Of a DNA stretch of 64,000 nt, positions 7,516-28,800 are shown piece by piece; position 1 is the first letter of the stretch, and the number at the start of each line of letters is the position of its first letter. The translations under genes and the position numbers were made by a program. Source of the DNA: Caenorhabditis elegans. Its lineage: Eukaryota; Nematoda; Chromadorea; Rhabditida; Rhabditidae. The notes beneath the pieces were generated by a model. The model had not been told where the DNA came from and did no database searches. It saw only the letters and a list, made by a program, of their open reading frames with translations. The DNA is taken from positions 13,764,001 through 13,828,000 of the forward strand of contig NC_003283.11 in the NCBI RefSeq assembly GCF_000002985.6, written 5' to 3'.

Positions 7516-9665
7516 ATGTTTCTTCTCAAGTACATTTATTTTCTCTCATTATCCATTATTCCCATTTGGGCTGCAGATTTAACATGTCCAGGTATGCCAA
7601 TTACGACCGAATCTGGAGACTTTCCACAAGGAGGACCAACGGTGTTTCCAAAAAATTATAACTGTTATTTTCAGGTTAATTCAAAACTTGTAGTTTAAAC
7701 TAATGAAAAGAGTTTTTAGTTTCAAATTCCTGATGGCCAGGTGGTCAAATTCGATGTTCAAACTAATGCAGATACTGATGCTGGAGACAAGCTTGTAATC
7801 GAAGATTCCACGGGAACAAATCATGAGTGAGTTTTATCCGAAATGGGAATTCCTCAAAAATTGAACGCATCTTTTTCATAGCACACTATCGGAGTTATAG
7901 TACATCTTATAGTTAGCGTTTTAACAAATTCTCGCAGCTTTTCAAATAACTATTGTAATTTCTTAAATTAATTTTTGTTCAGAACTGCATATGTTTCTGC
8001 ATCTTCGTCACATCTTTTGACAAAGATTTGTAAACTTTCTTTTCAAGTTGCAGGGGTTTGCTATAAAGTTGTGACCCAGTAGCCATCATACATAACGTCA
8101 TTTGTTTCAATCTAAATTTCCAACAAAAGTTACTGTATTTTTTGCACGGTCTCAAACTTGTTATACTTTGCAAGTGACAACAACTATCGCAAACTTTTCT
8201 CATTGGAGTTCCCCTAATTGCACCATAGATTTGATAGGGGTTTATCAATGAAACTTTCAAGATTTTGTTACAGAATGTATACTGGTGAAATTACGTACTA
8301 CGCTGCCGCCAATAACGCAAATGTCAAAATTACTACTAAAACCAACAATGCTTCTTTTCATTTTTCTTGGAAGTTCATCGATGTCACTACATTCAACAAA
8401 ATTCAGAATCCAAGTGGAACTATTCTCAATTTGAATCTCACCGCAAACACTTTCTATCAATTCAATTCAGAATTGAGTAACATAACATTTCACACTGCAA
8501 ATCTTGATAGAACTTTTGACGTATCACTTGCCTATATTTATGTTTATGATGGACAAGACCTGAATGGAAAGTTCTTAGGACATCTTTTGCAATTTTCTGG
8601 CTCTATGAAAACTCAATCCACAACTGGAAAATCATTGGTTCTTGTCAATTTTTATGGATCCAACTCAAGATCTTATGGTATTGCAAATGACTATTCATCT
8701 GTATTTTCATACAACACATACGAATTGATTGTTGCTTCAAGTGGCATTAATTATTATTCCAATTATGTAGTTCCAACTGGAAAAGAGTCTGCATTCACTT
8801 ATTTTTGTGTGGACTCAATGGAAACTTATATCATCGATTTGAATATTGTGGACCAAAACGTTGTCGGACAATCGATTAGTTTTAAACCACTCACACCAAC
8901 ACAATTTCAATCAAACTTATTGATTTACAAGTAAGCGTTCTAAATTCAACTTTTTCCATCTACATTTTTTTAGACACGGAGATCCAATTGCTCAAAGTTT
9001 GCCACAACAAATACCAACAAATACCTTCACTGTGATAATGAGCCAGTCCACGTTCAACTTTTTGCTCTCTTCTGGCCCGTCGAGCATTTGGAATCTTGCT
9101 CCTCCAGGAAGAAGAGGATGGATAATATCTCCATCGCTCTGGAATCCTACGACTACTGCTACGGTTCCCTATACATCTAATTTCAGTACGTAGTTTGAAT
9201 TTTCAACTTTCCAATTCAATCATTTAAAAAATCAATGAGCAAAACTTAATAGGAGCGTTTTTCAGCGTCTGTGGAAAAAATTAAATTCATTTTCAACCTG
9301 ATATCCGTGGTAATTGTGGATGAAGGAGCAGAAATGAAAATTACTATGGGATCGCCGGGAATTCCACCAAATGTTGTTGAATTTAATCAAACTGCAGTTA
9401 ATACTGGTTCAAGATCTGTATATGGAACGTACATGTCCACAGAATTTACCGGAAGCACGGATATTTCATCATTTCTTCTGAATTTTGAAATAGTGGTTAG
9501 TTTAAAATTACATAGTTTGCGGTTGAAAACTAAATTCTCACGATTTAGGGTAATCCGGCAACAGCAACTACTGCTCAACTGGAGACAACAACAAAAACGG
9601 CTAATTTGTTTATTAATATTCCACTTGTTTTATTTATTTTTGTGAGACTTTTATTAGCTTTATAA
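7516..9665 (+). CDS. CUB-like domain secreted protein A, probably GPI-anchored
   Basis: Exons 7516-7674, 7720-7826, 8274-8930, 8974-9185, 9266-9495 and 9549-9665 give 493 residues. A signal peptide (LSLSIIPIWAADLTCPG) is followed by the nematode CUB-like domain (CPG, FPKNYNCYFQ, FQIPDGQVVKFDVQT, DKLVIEDSTG). A second, poorly characterised region has repeated YVYDGQDLNGKFLG and PGRRGWIISPS motifs. The last exon encodes a Thr-rich stretch and then a hydrophobic tail without charged residues, as expected for GPI attachment. CUB-like genes of this kind are often intestinal and pathogen-responsive in C. elegans. It is a tandem paralogue of the gene at 11804: exons 1, 2, 4 and 5 have exactly the same lengths. 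The last two exons also exist as an inverted copy at 10.7-11.0 kb. Confidence 0.85.
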
Positions 9666-11012
9666 CAACAGCATTCAAATAAATAATTTGTTTTGTGAAA
9701 CATATATGGCAGTCATGACTAGATCAGAAAGGAGAACTACAGTGGTGGCCAAAAGTATATGCGTTTTGGTTTTTTTTTCGAATTGTTCATAATTTTCAAA
9801 TGAGTATAACTCACAAACTAGGCACTTTAGAAAGAAAAGTTTAACTGCTAAACTGTTGTTTAGAATCTTGTCTACATGTTAAAACATGAACCAACATTTC
9901 AAAAAATTCAGGTCAAGAGATACAGCGGGAGACATCTCGCGAGTTCATTTTTGGCTATTTCTTTTGAAACGCATGTAGCTCGAGAAGAAAAAGTTTTCAT
10001 GAAAAAATTTTTAGTAATAAAATAATCTGCAAATATTTCTCTATTACATGTAATTAGTAATTTTTCAATCAAGCAACCAGTAGAATAGAGCTGTAAGTTT
10101 AAACACGCGGAGTACCAGCACTCGTCGGGAACAATTTCTAAAAGTGGTGGGTAAATTTTTCTAATACTTGCTTTTCAGTTGAAATGCAAATAAAATTCAG
10201 TTATAAAATTAGTTATTCAAAATATATGCACGAAAATATATTTTTGAAAAACATGACCTGGTGTTTTAACAGTGGGTTTTGCTTTGCTTTGTGCTTTGAC
10301 AGTGCTTTGAGATGCCCGTATTTAAACTTACAGCTCTATTCTACAGGATGTTTGATTGAAAAACGATTAATTGCATGTGATAGAGAAATATTTGCAAATT
10401 ATTTTATTGCTAAAACTTTTGTCATGAAAACTTTTTCTTCTCGAGTTACATGCGTTTCAAAAGAAATAGCAAAAAATGAACTCGCGAGATGTCTCCCGCT
10501 GTATCTCTTGACCTGAATTTTTTGAAATGTTGGTTCATGTTTTAACATGTAGACAAGATTCTAAACAACAGTTTAGCAGTTAAACTTTTCTTTCTAAAGT
10601 GCCTAGTTTGTGAGTTATACTCATTTGAAAATTATGAACAATTCGAAAAAAAAACCAAAACGCATATACTTTTGGCCACCACTGTAGTTCTCCTTTCTGA
10701 TCTAGTCATGACTGCCATATATGTTTCACAAAACAAATTATTTATTTGAATGCTGTTGTTATAAAGCTAATAAAAGTCTCACAAAAATAAATAAAACAAG
10801 TGGAATATTAATAAACAAATTAGCCGTTTTTGTTGTTGTCTCCAGTTGAGCAGTAGTTGCTGTTGCCGGATTACCCTAAATCGTGAGAATTTAGTTTTCA
10901 ACCGCGAACTATGTAATTTTAAACTAACCACTATTTCAAAATTCAGAAGAAATGATGAAATATCCGTGCTTCCGGTAAATTCTGTGGACATGTACGTTCC
11001 ATATACAGATCT
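9412..11012. repeat. 692-base inverted duplication with 217-base loop
   Basis: Positions 9412-10103 and 10321-11012 are reverse complements of equal length (692 bases), separated by 10104-10320. By eye, the outer part (9412 to about 9943 against about 10480-11012) has a single mismatch (9520s T against C). The inner part (about 9985-10103 against 10321-10440) differs at roughly one base in ten. The outer arms contain part of exon 5, intron 5, all of exon 6, the stop and the poly(A) signal of CUB-like gene A. A transcript across the block would fold into a long hairpin. Boundaries are sharp: AGATCT on the outside, TTTAAA at the loop. Confidence 0.93.
9678..9683 (+). terminator. Poly(A) signal of CUB-like gene A
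   Basis: AATAAA stands 13 bases after the stop codon at 9663-9665. The paralogue downstream has AATAAA at a similar distance from its stop (13752-13757), which supports both. Confidence 0.6.
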
Positions 11013-11260
11013 CCTTCTCGAGCTACATGCGTTTCAAAAGAAGTAGCCAAAAATGAACTCGCGAGATGTCTCCCACTGTATCTCTTGACCTGAATTTTTT
11101 TTAATGTTGGAGCATGTTTTAACATGTAGACAAGATTCTAAACAACAGTATAGCAGTTGAACTTTTCTTTCTAAAATGCTTAGTTTGTGAGTTATACTCA
11201 TTTGAAAGTTATGAAAAATTCGCAAAAAACCAAAAACGCATATAATTTTGGCCACCACTG
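9741..11260. mobile_element. Non-autonomous TA-flanked element with long terminal inverted repeats
   Basis: The left end reads TA-CAGTGGTGGCCAAAAGTATA and the right end is its near reverse complement followed by TA (11261-11262), so the block is bounded by a TA target duplication, as for Tc1/mariner-like insertions. Terminal repeats of about 248 bases (9741-9988 against 11013-11260) match with scattered differences. No transposase frame is present, so it is a MITE-like derivative. The central 10441-11012 segment looks like a later insertion (see findings), so the original element was probably about 950 bases with terminal repeats of about 360 bases. Confidence 0.75.
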
Positions 11261-11262
11261 TA

Positions 11263-11803: not shown

Positions 11804-13734
11804 ATGATTTCCTTCGTTCTATTCTCTATTCTTTTCATCGCACCCAGTTTTGCAGATGACTTAACATGTCCCAACTCACCTATAACAAGTAACGTTCCAT
11901 CAGGGCATTTTCCATTAAATGGTTTAGCAAAGTTTCCTGCAAATTATGATTGCTCCGTTGAGGTAAACTGAAAAACACTTCAAGATGTTAATAATTTATT
12001 CAAATTTTAGTTTGAAATTCCCGATGGCCAAGTTATCAAGTTTATTGTTCAAACAGATGCATTATTTGAGAATCTGGACAGTTTTGTCATTCGGGATTCC
12101 AGATCTACACTTTATAAGTGAGTCTAGTATTGAAAAAAAAACATCTGAAATTTGCTCCCATTATTTACTTTACACTACCAAAAATGAATTTGAATTTTTT
12201 GTTTGATAGTAAAAAATTTCTATTTTCGCCATGCAATGAATGTGAAATAAGAAAGTTCAGAGTTTCAGGAGTTCAAAGTAAAAATGTATAGAAAGTAGTG
12301 CACAAATAGTGCTGCCGTATACAATTGCATACTCAAGAGTTGACAAAACACATTTGTTTTTCAGAATGGATGTTGGAGAATCAGTTTTCTTTGCAGCGGC
12401 CAACAACTCAAAAGTATATATTTCCACAAACTCGGGCAAAGCTAGTTTCTATTTTTCCTGGCAATATATTGATGTTTCGAAGTTCACTCGCATTCAAAAT
12501 CCAACTGGAACAGTGTTAAATTTGAATCTAACTGCCAATAGTTTCTATCAGTTTGTTTCATCAGCTGATCAAGTTGCATTCCATACTTCTGCATTGGGAA
12601 TTCTTTCAGACAGTTCTATTTGGAAGATTTACGTGTATGATGGGGAAGATTTGAATGCAAAATTCATGGGGAATCTGAAGCAATTTACAAATATTGGTAG
12701 CTCGTCTACCCGGAAATCGTTGTCACTTGTGAACTTTTACGAAACTCCTTCACAATCATACGGCATTGCTAATGACTATTCAATTGTCTCTAGATACAAG
12801 GACTACTCATTAAGGATATTATCAAGTGGATCTGACTTTTTCGAGCGTTTCTTCGTCCCGGATGGAGTTAAATCTGCTGTCACATTTTTCTGCCCTGATT
12901 CAATGGAAACGTATATCACTGGTCTTACTATCGTCAAACAAAATTTTCCTGGCGAAAAATTTGTCAGTTTCACTCCACTCACACCGACACACGCTTACTC
13001 AAATGTTTTAGCTTACAGGTGAGTTGAAGAATTTTGAAAATTTAGTTTTTATGAAATTAGTTTCTAATAATAATTTTAGTGTGGGCGACCCAATATATCG
13101 AAGCTTGCCACAACAGATTTTATCAGATACATTTACAATGGTTGCATATCAATCAGCTGTTTCCTTATCACTAACTTGTGGACCTTATCCAAACTGGGGT
13201 TATGTCTTTCCTGGAAGAAGAGGGTATATCATTTCTCCGTCGATCTGGAATCCTACCACCCTGAAAACTCCTTCATATTCTACTAATTTCAGTGAGTTGG
13301 CAAAGAAAAATATGATTTTTTGAAAAACAATTTCAGCTTCTTCTGAGACTGTACGTTTCAATATAAACCTTCCCGATGTAGTGATTGGTGATCCCGGAGC
13401 TAAGATCAGAGTCGAATTCGGAGCTCCTGGCAAAACTCCAGTTGGAGTAGAGTTTAATGAAACTACGTCAGGTGCGGGTGCTAGATCTGCAAATGCAACA
13501 TATATGTCTGTTACATTCGATGGAACGACTGTGAAATCATCGTTCTCATTTGTTTTTAACGTAGAGGTATATTCAGTTAATTTAGTGGATTATGATATAA
13601 CTGAAATTCAGAGTTTGTTTCCGAGTACGTCTACAACAACGGACACTCCATTTGAAACAACAACAAAATCTTCAGCAATTATTTTTAAATGTTCAATGGT
13701 TTTCATTATCCTTGTTAAATTTTTAAATTTTTAA
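11804..13734 (+). CDS. CUB-like domain secreted protein B
   Basis: Exons 11804-11962, 12011-12117, 12365-13018, 13080-13291, 13337-13566 and 13612-13734 give 494 residues. The last intron is 45 bases, a multiple of three without a stop, so it could be retained; it is drawn as an intron because paralogue A has one at the same place. A signal peptide (MISFVLFSILFIAPSFA) precedes DDLTCPNSPIT and a CUB-like domain (FPANYDCSVE, FEIPDGQVIKFIVQT). The central part shares MDVGESVFFAAANN, IYVYDGEDLNAKFMGN and FPGRRGYIISPSIWNP with gene A. The Thr-rich C-terminus ends in a hydrophobic stretch, consistent with a GPI signal. Exon lengths equal those of A in four of six exons, which shows a tandem duplication. 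Confidence 0.87.
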
Positions 13735-25886: not shown

Positions 25887-28800
25887 ATGGACAATAATCA
25901 GAGGTCGGTGCCGAGTTCGCCGGCACCAGGTCACGGGTCTTCTGGATATTTTTCTCAACAGGTATATCCATCGTTCATATTTTATTCCGGTCTGATCAGT
26001 TTAATTGAACTGTAAACTATGAATTAATAGTTTAACCTTCTCAAACAATTGAATCTCAGGAAAGTACCCATCACGATGAGCGAACAACACCTCCAACAGC
26101 TTTTCATTTTCCGGCATCACATCAAGGACAGCCGGCACCTGTAATGGGCCAACCACCTGGTTTGTCACTTTCTTTTCATCGGTTCATTGAGCTAATGCAA
26201 GCACCCAAGAGCCATATTCGAGATAAATACGACACAAATATTTCGTAATTCACGTGACCCACACCTAGTTCCGGTGGCTCGTATTTCAAAAGCTTATTTA
26301 TTCCGATCTCGTAAACTGCCAGTCAACAAAATTTCGTGTAAAAAAATTTTGATTTTCATTGAAACCAATGAACCTGAAAATGTTCGTTAATTTCACGCTC
26401 GATTACTCTTATTCTTCGTTAACTTTTCTCGATTCTTTAATACAATTCCTTCCACAAATTCTCCCAAGATATCCATCTAGCTCAACAGAATTGAAAATGA
26501 GCCAGAAAACGGGCAATATGGAGCTCACGAAGAATCCTCCTAAGAAATTGGCTCTCATTAGAAATGCATTGGTTTTCTCTTGTCGAACTGTGCACAAAGG
26601 ACAAGACATCATTCTTATTTGACCCCTTCTATGTCACAATGCTTCCATCTTTGTCAATTACTGATCGATGGTTGTGAAGAGAAAAAGTCACATATACAGA
26701 AACAGACACAAAAAACCGGTTTCACAAAGAAATAGAGACCGACACACACACAAAATTTGACGATTTATGGCTGAACATGAGACATAGTGTGCCATTAAAA
26801 ACAATCATTACTTTTTATTAACATCACTTCAATTTTTTGTCCTTCTGTGAAACTTTACGCGCGCGAAAAACGTGTCTTTTTGAATATATATCTCATTTAT
26901 ATCTGTGAGGTTTGACCTAATCATAAACCAATTTGATTGCCTATATAAACTTGTGTTGATTGTGTATTGAGTGAAAAGCTACATCAGTTGTATCTATAAT
27001 TTTTGAAACTTTTCAGGCTACCCAATGCAGGCGCATGTTCTTGTCGATCCGGTCACAGGACAACATTACATTGTTCCACAGTACTACCCACCTCCAATGT
27101 ATCCATATCCATCAGCACCACCTCCACATCCAAATGCTCCAATGTATTATCCATATGGTCATCATGCACCATCTCATGCTCCGATGCCTTCACAGAAAAT
27201 TCTACCGCCGCCTACTACTTCGGCTCCGAGTAATTCTGGCAACAATTCTAGTGAGTTTTTAAGATTTTTTAAATTACAAAAAACTGCTTTGAGATGAGCT
27301 GAATCAGGGCTGAATTTTAAAAAAAGTTTCGAAAATGAAACAATTAAAAAAATAAAAAAAGTTTAATAATTTATCCGTACTTGTGCGTTAGTTTTCGAGT
27401 GTTTTTTTTTCGGAAAAAAAGTACAAAATTGAAAAAAATTAATGAGATTTTTCCTTTTTTCATGTTTTTGGCGAAAATTTTAATTTTTTTGTTTTTTTTT
27501 TGAAAAAATGTGAAAAAAAGGAACGAAAAAAGCGAGAAAATTGTGTTAAATTTTTATTAAAACATTATTCAAAACAATTATTAAAAGAACATTCTAGAAA
27601 GTAACGTTTCAAGCTTTAAAAAAAATAGTTGTTTCCTATTTTCGTTACCGGACATAAAAATGAAAATTAAATTTTTAAAAAAGAAGAAAGCAATTATTTT
27701 CCGGACTCAGGCGGCAGAAAACAAAAGTTTTCGTTTTTTTCCCCGAAAAAAAAATCTAAAACTAAACTTTTCGCCAAAAACACGAAAAACTAGAAATTTT
27801 CAGCTCTGATGCTAATATTAAATAATTTTCAGTTAACTATATGGGAGTTCAAATGTACAATAATCCAGTTCAAAGTCACGAGGAAAAAGAAGGTTCAGAA
27901 GATGCAATGTCAACAACTTCAAATATATCCAGAAGTTCTTTAACACTTATGCAAAATCAGAAAGTACCACCCACGCAACATCAACAACAATTTGGACGAG
28001 AGAATAGTCGAGAATACATGTATTTACATCGATCCCCAACTACAAATCCTGCTCCACCATCACCCTTAATGCGTCCCAAGCTGTTTCATCAACGATTAGA
28101 AACTGTTACCGATTCACGTGGCGGAACACAATCGGATTTCGAAGGAAAAACGCCAACGATGCGACAGAAATCAGTTGATCATCAACCATCATCGGCGTCA
28201 GATCATGAATCTGGAAAACGATTCTCGAGAACATCGTTCGGAACGCCAGCAGCAGCTGCTTCAATTGAAGAAATTGTGAAAAGTTAGTTTTTATTCCAAA
28301 AAATAAAAAAAGAAAAATATAAATTCAAAAATATAGCTTTTTTTTTCAAAAAAAAGCACAAAAGTTTTGTTGTTAAAACTTTATTAATTTTTCACTCTTA
28401 TACAAAAAATTAATTCTCTACATGAAAGGAAATTGGCCATAATGTCTGAATGTAACTGTAGTTTTTAAAAATCGGAAAATCGAAAAACGAAACATTTCGA
28501 TTTGACTTTTTATCTAATTTTGTTTATATTGATGAGAAGAAACATAACAATTTATTTTAAAAAAACAATGACCAAATTTTAAGCTAATTTTTTAAAAATC
28601 GAATTTTTGTTTCGAAATATCTGAAAATCGGAAAAAAAAAGAACAGCCATTTTTTGAAAAATTCTGTTTCTATTTTCTGTCATTTGAAGAAAAATACTTT
28701 TTTTTCACTCTTTAAGATAAATTTGAATTTTCAGCTGTCAACCCACCTGCAAAATCAGTCCGAATGGAAATTAATTTTGCCGATGTATTGTCAATGCCAA

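Follow-up and report, generated by a model that had tools for sequence, protein, structure and literature searches.

A young inverted copy of a CUB-like gene end inside a diverged Tc7-like element of Caenorhabditis elegans, apparently copied through the element's own left arm

The window, the whole 64-kb stretch of Caenorhabditis elegans DNA that was analysed (C5:13764001-13828000, within a searched genome of 100,286,401 bases in 7 contigs), contains a predicted CUB-like gene, gene A, with a palindromic element on its 3' side (Table 1). The hand-spliced six-exon frame of gene A is open, its product matches Pfam PF02408 (CUB_2, E 1.7e-14) and the gene displays no visible damage. Part of a further gene, gene B, can be found downstream on the same strand (about 11805-12991); in places it matches gene A at 70-74%, as direct repeats at 8788/12873 and 8862/12950, and genes A and B look like tandem paralogues. 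Between 9412 and 11262 three arms follow one another: the left arm, a middle arm at 10317-10686, and a third arm formed by the outer part of the old right arm. We are highly confident that this three-arm structure is real and stems from one copying event.

Table 1. Features of the locus (positions in the window)
Feature	Position	Strand	Content or basis
Gene A, donor, CUB-like, 493 aa	7516..9665	+	Predicted, hand-spliced on GT/AG sites; exons 7516-7674, 7720-7826, 8274-8930, 8974-9185, 9266-9495, 9549-9665
Template tract	9412..9987	+	Exon 5 (final 84 bases), intron 5, exon 6, AATAAA, 3' flank, left arm (outer 250 bases)
Left arm of the palindromic TA-flanked element	9738..10107	+	Outer TA at 9738-9739; arm alignment, sister elements
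Unique loop, 209 bases	10108..10316	+	Sister elements matched by a loop-spanning query
Old right arm, inner part	10317..10436	-	Differs from the left arm at 13 of 120 bases
Exit interval of the copy from the old right arm	10422..10465	.	Nearest marker columns 10003 and 9958 (left-arm positions)
Young inverted copy of 9412-9987	10437..11012	-	3 mismatches in 576
Complete terminal-repeat end, within the young copy	10686		
Reversed gene end, within the young copy	10687..11012		
Extra single base C, outer junction	11013..11013	.	Junction comparison
Old right arm, outer part, ending in the outer TA	11014..11262	-	Arm alignment, sister elements

In the arm alignment, 10317-11012 is the reverse complement of 9412-10107 over 696 columns, with no gaps and 16 mismatches, and this inverted repeat extends 326 bases past the end of the left arm, into gene A and its 3' flank. 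The mismatches (left-side positions 9518, 9953, 9978, 10003, 10008, 10015, 10027, 10045, 10051, 10057, 10059, 10060, 10073, 10076, 10079 and 10104) are unevenly spread: the outer tract 9412-9987 holds three in its 576 bases and the inner tract 9988-10107 holds 13 in 120 (Fisher P = 2.4e-8), and 9412-9952 (541 bases) differs from the middle-arm copy by a single mismatch. A single change-point in mismatch rate gives a best fit that was matched by none of 2000 shuffles; it falls at 9953 rather than at 9987 because the young mismatches at 9953 and 9978 sit near the inner junction. In simulation, the chance of at least two of the three young mismatches lying within the last 35 bases before that junction is about 1%. 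Both are private to the middle arm, and are either later mutations or errors at the start or end of copying; none of the three lies in an exon of gene A, the one at 9518 being in intron 5 and the other two in the arm. The third arm (11262-11014) differs from 9738-9987 by 17 columns out of 251 (14 substitutions and 3 indel columns). A preliminary description of this DNA had already contrasted a young segment, nearly identical to the reverse complement of the end of gene A, with older and diverged neighbouring pairs, and had proposed that the three arms be aligned base by base for mismatch density; the alignment agrees, with divergence along the arms being non-uniform. An ungapped scan of the window (seed 12, minimum 60) listed three inverted repeats, two of which are parts of the three-arm structure; together with the mismatch statistics, this rules out a chance repeat as the origin of the 696-base inverted repeat. 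The remaining inverted repeat of at least 60 nt pairs 27443-27508 with 27737-27802 at 74%, 228 bases apart.

The source of the middle arm can be read from the 17 alignment columns that distinguish the left arm from the old right arm across 9738-9987. The middle arm has the left-arm state in all 17 and the right-arm state in none, and stands alone at two more. With 12 sister arms as reference, six of these columns are apparently derived in the left arm, all six of which the middle arm shares; ten have an apparently derived state in the right arm, some of them perhaps younger than the event; and column 9785 is ambiguous. The left-arm derived columns comprise the substitutions at 9778 and 9821 (12/12 sisters agree with the right arm at each) and 9890 (10/12), and a T/G-tract difference at 9768-9771 that accounts for the other three and is alignment-dependent. 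Since left-arm derived bases recur in the middle arm, the template was this very left arm; another family member as the source of the copied arm is ruled out by the same shared bases. On the inner side of 10003, the differences between middle and left arm are those expected of an old right arm. The preliminary description had the copying start in the right arm, pass to the left arm and outward into gene A, and return to the right arm; the left-arm derived bases common to the middle arm support this order as well.

The copied part of gene A consists of 84 bases of exon 5, intron 5 (9496-9548) and exon 6, including the stop codon (9665) and followed by AATAAA (9678), and ends at AGATCT in exon 5, as had been noted earlier. 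Because intron 5 lies inside the copied tract, it was DNA that was copied, and an RNA-mediated origin is ruled out. A whole-genome search with the gene fragment 9412-9737 (326 bases) returned exactly two matches, both at this locus; copies of the exon fragment in other elements, which had been named as an argument against a local switch, were thus not found. With a mutation rate of about 2.5e-9 per site and generation, the divergence of the two copies (between 1 in 541 and 3 in 576) places the event roughly 0.4 to 1 million generations ago, by a hand calculation based on very few mutations.

Removal of 10437-11013 leaves an element of 948 bases (952 including two flanking bases per end), close to the roughly 950 bases predicted for the ancestral element, with arms of about 370 bases and a loop of 209. 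A left-arm query (9738-10004) gave at least 49 matches across the whole genome (40 of 65 candidates scored). Over almost its full extent the collapsed element can be aligned with four sister copies (L045, 934 bases; L044, 935; L043, 969; L049, 922 as cut), which makes the two-arm element the ancestral state. The focal element and L043-L046 start with TACAGTGG and end with its complement; TACAGTGG is found at the left ends of five sister loci, and the right end of L049 is altered. The outer TA ends and two-arm sisters of about 920-970 bases thus bear out the earlier proposal of an old TA-flanked palindromic element inserted after gene A. One of the sisters is shortened to 627 bases (L046, C1:3200300-3202700, 854-1480), having kept both TA ends without the loop and without the inner part of one arm.

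The ends of the element relate it to the Tc1/Tc7 type: an outer TA with Tc1-like bases (TACAGTGG...CCACTGTA) is present at 9738 and 11262, and long arms around a unique loop within about 0.9-1 kb are found both in the 948-base form and in the four sisters (922-969 bases as cut). A genome search for the terminal-base pattern gave 116 sites (60 forward, 56 reverse), and among the sites listed many with CAGTGC form pairs about 1.6 or 0.92 kb apart. Among the matches listed for CAGTGG, 13 of 14 lie at the ends of left-arm-query matches, the remaining one being at L079. Twelve loci were taken from this search; eight are long-armed, of about 0.92 kb, with arms that partly match the focal arms at about 65-70%. 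The other four are L077 (1615 bases with 58-base ends), L074 and L078 (short, with 59-base ends) and L079 (one end only). We take the 1.6-kb type to be Tc1 and the long-armed ~0.92-kb type (8 elements) to be Tc7, which is said to have been described by Rezsohazy et al. in 1997 as a non-autonomous 'Tc1 hitch-hiking' element of C. elegans. The outer 39 bases of the focal element match those of L077, with its Tc1-like ends, at 84.6%. With Tc7 the focal family shares TA flanks, a length of about 0.92-0.97 kb, arms of about 350-370 bases, a unique loop and Tc1-resembling ends, but its arms are about one third diverged and its terminal bases are CAGTGGTGG in place of CAGTGCTGG; under a strict definition of Tc7, the outer bases are identical to those of Tc1, and the focal element falls outside it. 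The element is best described as a diverged relative of the type taken here to be Tc7. Passages of PMC6829131 place Tc7 among the families with detected transposition, and PMC2837035 reports no new Tc7 locations in the strain sequenced there.

No second case of host capture in a three-arm layout was found among the relatives. Thirty related loci were compared with themselves, and those whose arm match began at or before position 11 on both sides were counted as two-ended; none of the 11 that qualified (L043, L044, L045, L046, L047, L049, L055, L059, L061, L070 and L071) displays this layout, the other 19 being single-ended or worn and left out of the count. Inverted repeats do continue beyond the element ends in L070 (about 180 bases), L055 (26 and 31), L049 (about 10) and L046 (2), and L055 has weak similarity on both sides of the element. 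Of the eight Tc7-like elements among the 12 loci above, none has a repeat that extends beyond its ends by over 4 bases and none displays a three-arm host capture. L070 (C3:12245200-12248600, 979-1973) is a diverged member lying inside another high-copy palindromic family (at least 40 matches, 722 candidates). In L047 (C6:13768400-13771000, 1482-1676) the right arm contains three tandem partial copies of an outer arm segment, and L065 (C3:2976000-2980000, 1551-2527) contains six tandem partial arm copies at a spacing of about 173-186 bases, a satellite-like array. The last two loci demonstrate that the arms of this family also multiply in tandem without inverted capture, which counts against snap-back as a general route.

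The exit of the copy from the old right arm is bracketed by the nearest marker columns (Table 1) or, with the next ones (10008 and 9926), by 10417-10497; the interval rests on single columns, and either of the nearest may have mutated later. The position at which the third arm picks up again aligns to 10437. Loss from the old right arm is thus limited to about 15 bases, or duplication to about 29; with the looser markers these limits become 20 and 61. Exit and re-entry thereby fall at nearly one place, within ~30 bases by the nearest markers and ~60 by the next ones. The preliminary description had read the same microhomology, CTTCTCGAG, at both junctions. Its position at 11014 was correct (11014-11022), the other occurrence starts at 10437 (10437-10445) and not at about 10441, and the notion of a shared microhomology has to be given up; apart from it, the preliminary description is in essence correct. 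At the inner junction the arms are identical over 24 consecutive bases (10422-10445), a match which is ordinary arm homology, long enough to prime, and CTTCTCGAG is the arm sequence around the exit of the copy and its return (11014) instead of a two-junction microhomology. At the outer junction, the donor sequence is AGATCTTGAAC: past the end of the copy the donor continues as AGATCT-TGAACC, the observed sequence reads AGATCT-C-CTTCTCGAG, and in the right arm a T precedes CTTCTCGAG. Comparison of donor, observed sequence and right arm yields no clear microhomology at this junction, and one extra base at 11013. In the reconstructed pre-event sequence, each of two overlapping 7-base words across 11013 has a single match, on the reverse strand; these weak matches would allow a tiny templated step at that position.

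Break-primed snap-back copying, closed by end joining, is in our view the probable origin of this structure. An apparently non-coding palindromic DNA transposon of the Tc1/Tc7 type would first have been present immediately 3' of gene A. Later a broken or stalled DNA strand, with its end in the right arm, would have paired with the complementary left arm, the arms annealing as a snap-back hairpin or across chromatids. Outward synthesis of about 570 bases would have crossed the left terminal repeat, the poly(A) region, exon 6 and intron 5 and reached 84 bases into exon 5. The copied strand would then have detached at AGATCT and been rejoined by end joining to the remaining right arm, near its point of departure and with one extra base. 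An inter-arm switch of this kind fits a copy that is far younger than the arms, has its joint at an arm position and was made on the local arm rather than on another element; error-prone priming might leave the two young mismatches in the last 35 bases. Set against this route are the more than 1 kb of single-stranded DNA that an intrastrand hairpin would require, the mismatch change-point at 9953, the possibility that the junction mismatches are later mutations, and the lack of a second example in the relatives compared.

The closest parallels to the favoured route come from repair in C. elegans and yeast. Passages of PMC5068794 describe snap-back templated insertions in reverse-complement orientation during C. 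elegans polymerase theta repair, with mismatches commoner near where copying is abrogated; the likeness to our locus lies in the reverse-complement copy of a flank at a break, the errors near the copying stop and the little or no homology at closing. The inserts ascribed to theta there are overall < 25 bases long and lie in deletions, whereas here about 576 bases were inserted with little or no loss and one joint has long arm homology. Given this difference in length (about 570 bases against < 25), theta alone is unlikely to have made the whole insert, and theta end joining as its sole maker (~576 bases against few to tens in the same passages of PMC5068794) was rejected; at most theta may have closed the outer junction. 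According to the excerpted text of PMC11292364, purified human theta extends stem-loops, an activity that may help explain inverted-repeat repair events. In yeast, as far as the relevant passages of PMC7467729 go, hairpins with large loops mediate foldback inversions, a strand folding on an inverted repeat and being extended into an inverted duplication; loops there reach many thousands of nucleotides, compared with 209 here, and the products are gross chromosomal rearrangements, whereas at our locus synthesis ended at about 570 bases and was followed by rejoining to the original arm.

Fork template switching, a possible though distinctly less probable course, would place the event during replication, as the preliminary description had it, and yields an identical product: the nascent strand of the right arm would switch to the left arm on the same or the sister chromatid, copy outward and switch back, without a double-strand break. 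Long inverted repeats are natural switch points, the closeness of exit and re-entry fits a single stalled site, and about 570 bases suits a processive polymerase better than theta; but the return jump lacks clear microhomology and carries one extra base, more like end joining, and the sequence bears no mark of replication direction. We modestly prefer the break-primed route because the outer joint resembles end joining. The narrow exit interval bears on aborted gap repair after transposase excision, in which, during refill from the homologue, the left-hand strand would switch arms and join the right-hand strand. Tc1-like elements are known to leave breaks at their ends, and template-switching gap fill is the standard model of gene capture by DNA transposons; for two opposing fill-ins to meet with so little loss or gain would nevertheless be luck, the re-entry at 10437 lying inside a 44-base exit interval (81 with looser markers) of a ~370-base arm, and we consider this origin improbable. 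Still less probable is an old capture made to look young by recent gene conversion between the arms: such conversion is common between inverted repeats generally, but it would have had to stop both near the start of the third arm and at the end of homology, and no further copies of the exon fragment were found in the genome. A cloning or assembly artefact of the reference is hardly credible, for although long inverted repeats are difficult to clone and assemble, the copies differ by three mismatches and cloning presumably tends to lose such repeats and not to create them. A partial-digest cloning chimera is ruled out, the right arm having no GATC at the junction.

Within the literature searched, no paper on this locus was found among the titles and abstract openings listed. 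The locus is a well-resolved single event of known kind, in a diverged Tc7-like element. A related case of gene capture in C. elegans is Turmoil-1, for which passages of PMC2572040 report fragments of rsp-2 and cpg-3 in the inverted repeats and suggest capture by non-homologous recombination. Both cases have host coding fragments inside the inverted terminal repeats of a DNA transposon, the rsp-2 piece including an intron. By the same passages of PMC2572040, the Turmoil-1 fragments occupy both terminal repeats and exist as several copies, and cpg-3 occurs without adjoining Turmoil-1 sequence, whereas here the fragment comes from the adjacent gene, is present in one copy and leaves its route readable. 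The locus represents another capture route, from an adjacent gene in one step. It is not a transduplication, in which a fragment is moved or multiplied with its element, as a single captured copy was found in the genome.

The ends at 9738, 10686 and 11262 have all kept their terminal bases and TA, and a 949-base unit, or a 1525-base unit including the exon fragment, could in principle move; the genome search found no moved copy of the exon fragment. An RNA of 9412-11012 is predicted to fold at -1196 kcal/mol with 94% of its bases paired, and read-through past the poly(A) signal would, on this folding model, form a hairpin of gene A's own exons. F35E12 is a clone name associated with CUB-like genes and is not tied to this locus. 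In the passages concerned, PMC3213143 describes a C. elegans endogenous siRNA pathway that targets recently duplicated genes, and its main text makes no mention of F35E12. It would be a speculative and rather unlikely extension of these observations that the locus is at once a first gene-capture step, with 9738-11262 as a potentially mobile composite, and the source of a 696-base near-perfect hairpin whose read-through could silence gene A.

The finding bears on how mobile elements acquire pieces of genes. How DNA transposons come to enclose host exons usually has to be deduced from old, multiplied copies; here the source, the direction, and the approximate points of exit and re-entry are legible from one young event, with the two-arm form present elsewhere in the genome. 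If wild isolates keep the two-arm form at this site, the event would become datable and its effect on gene A directly testable.
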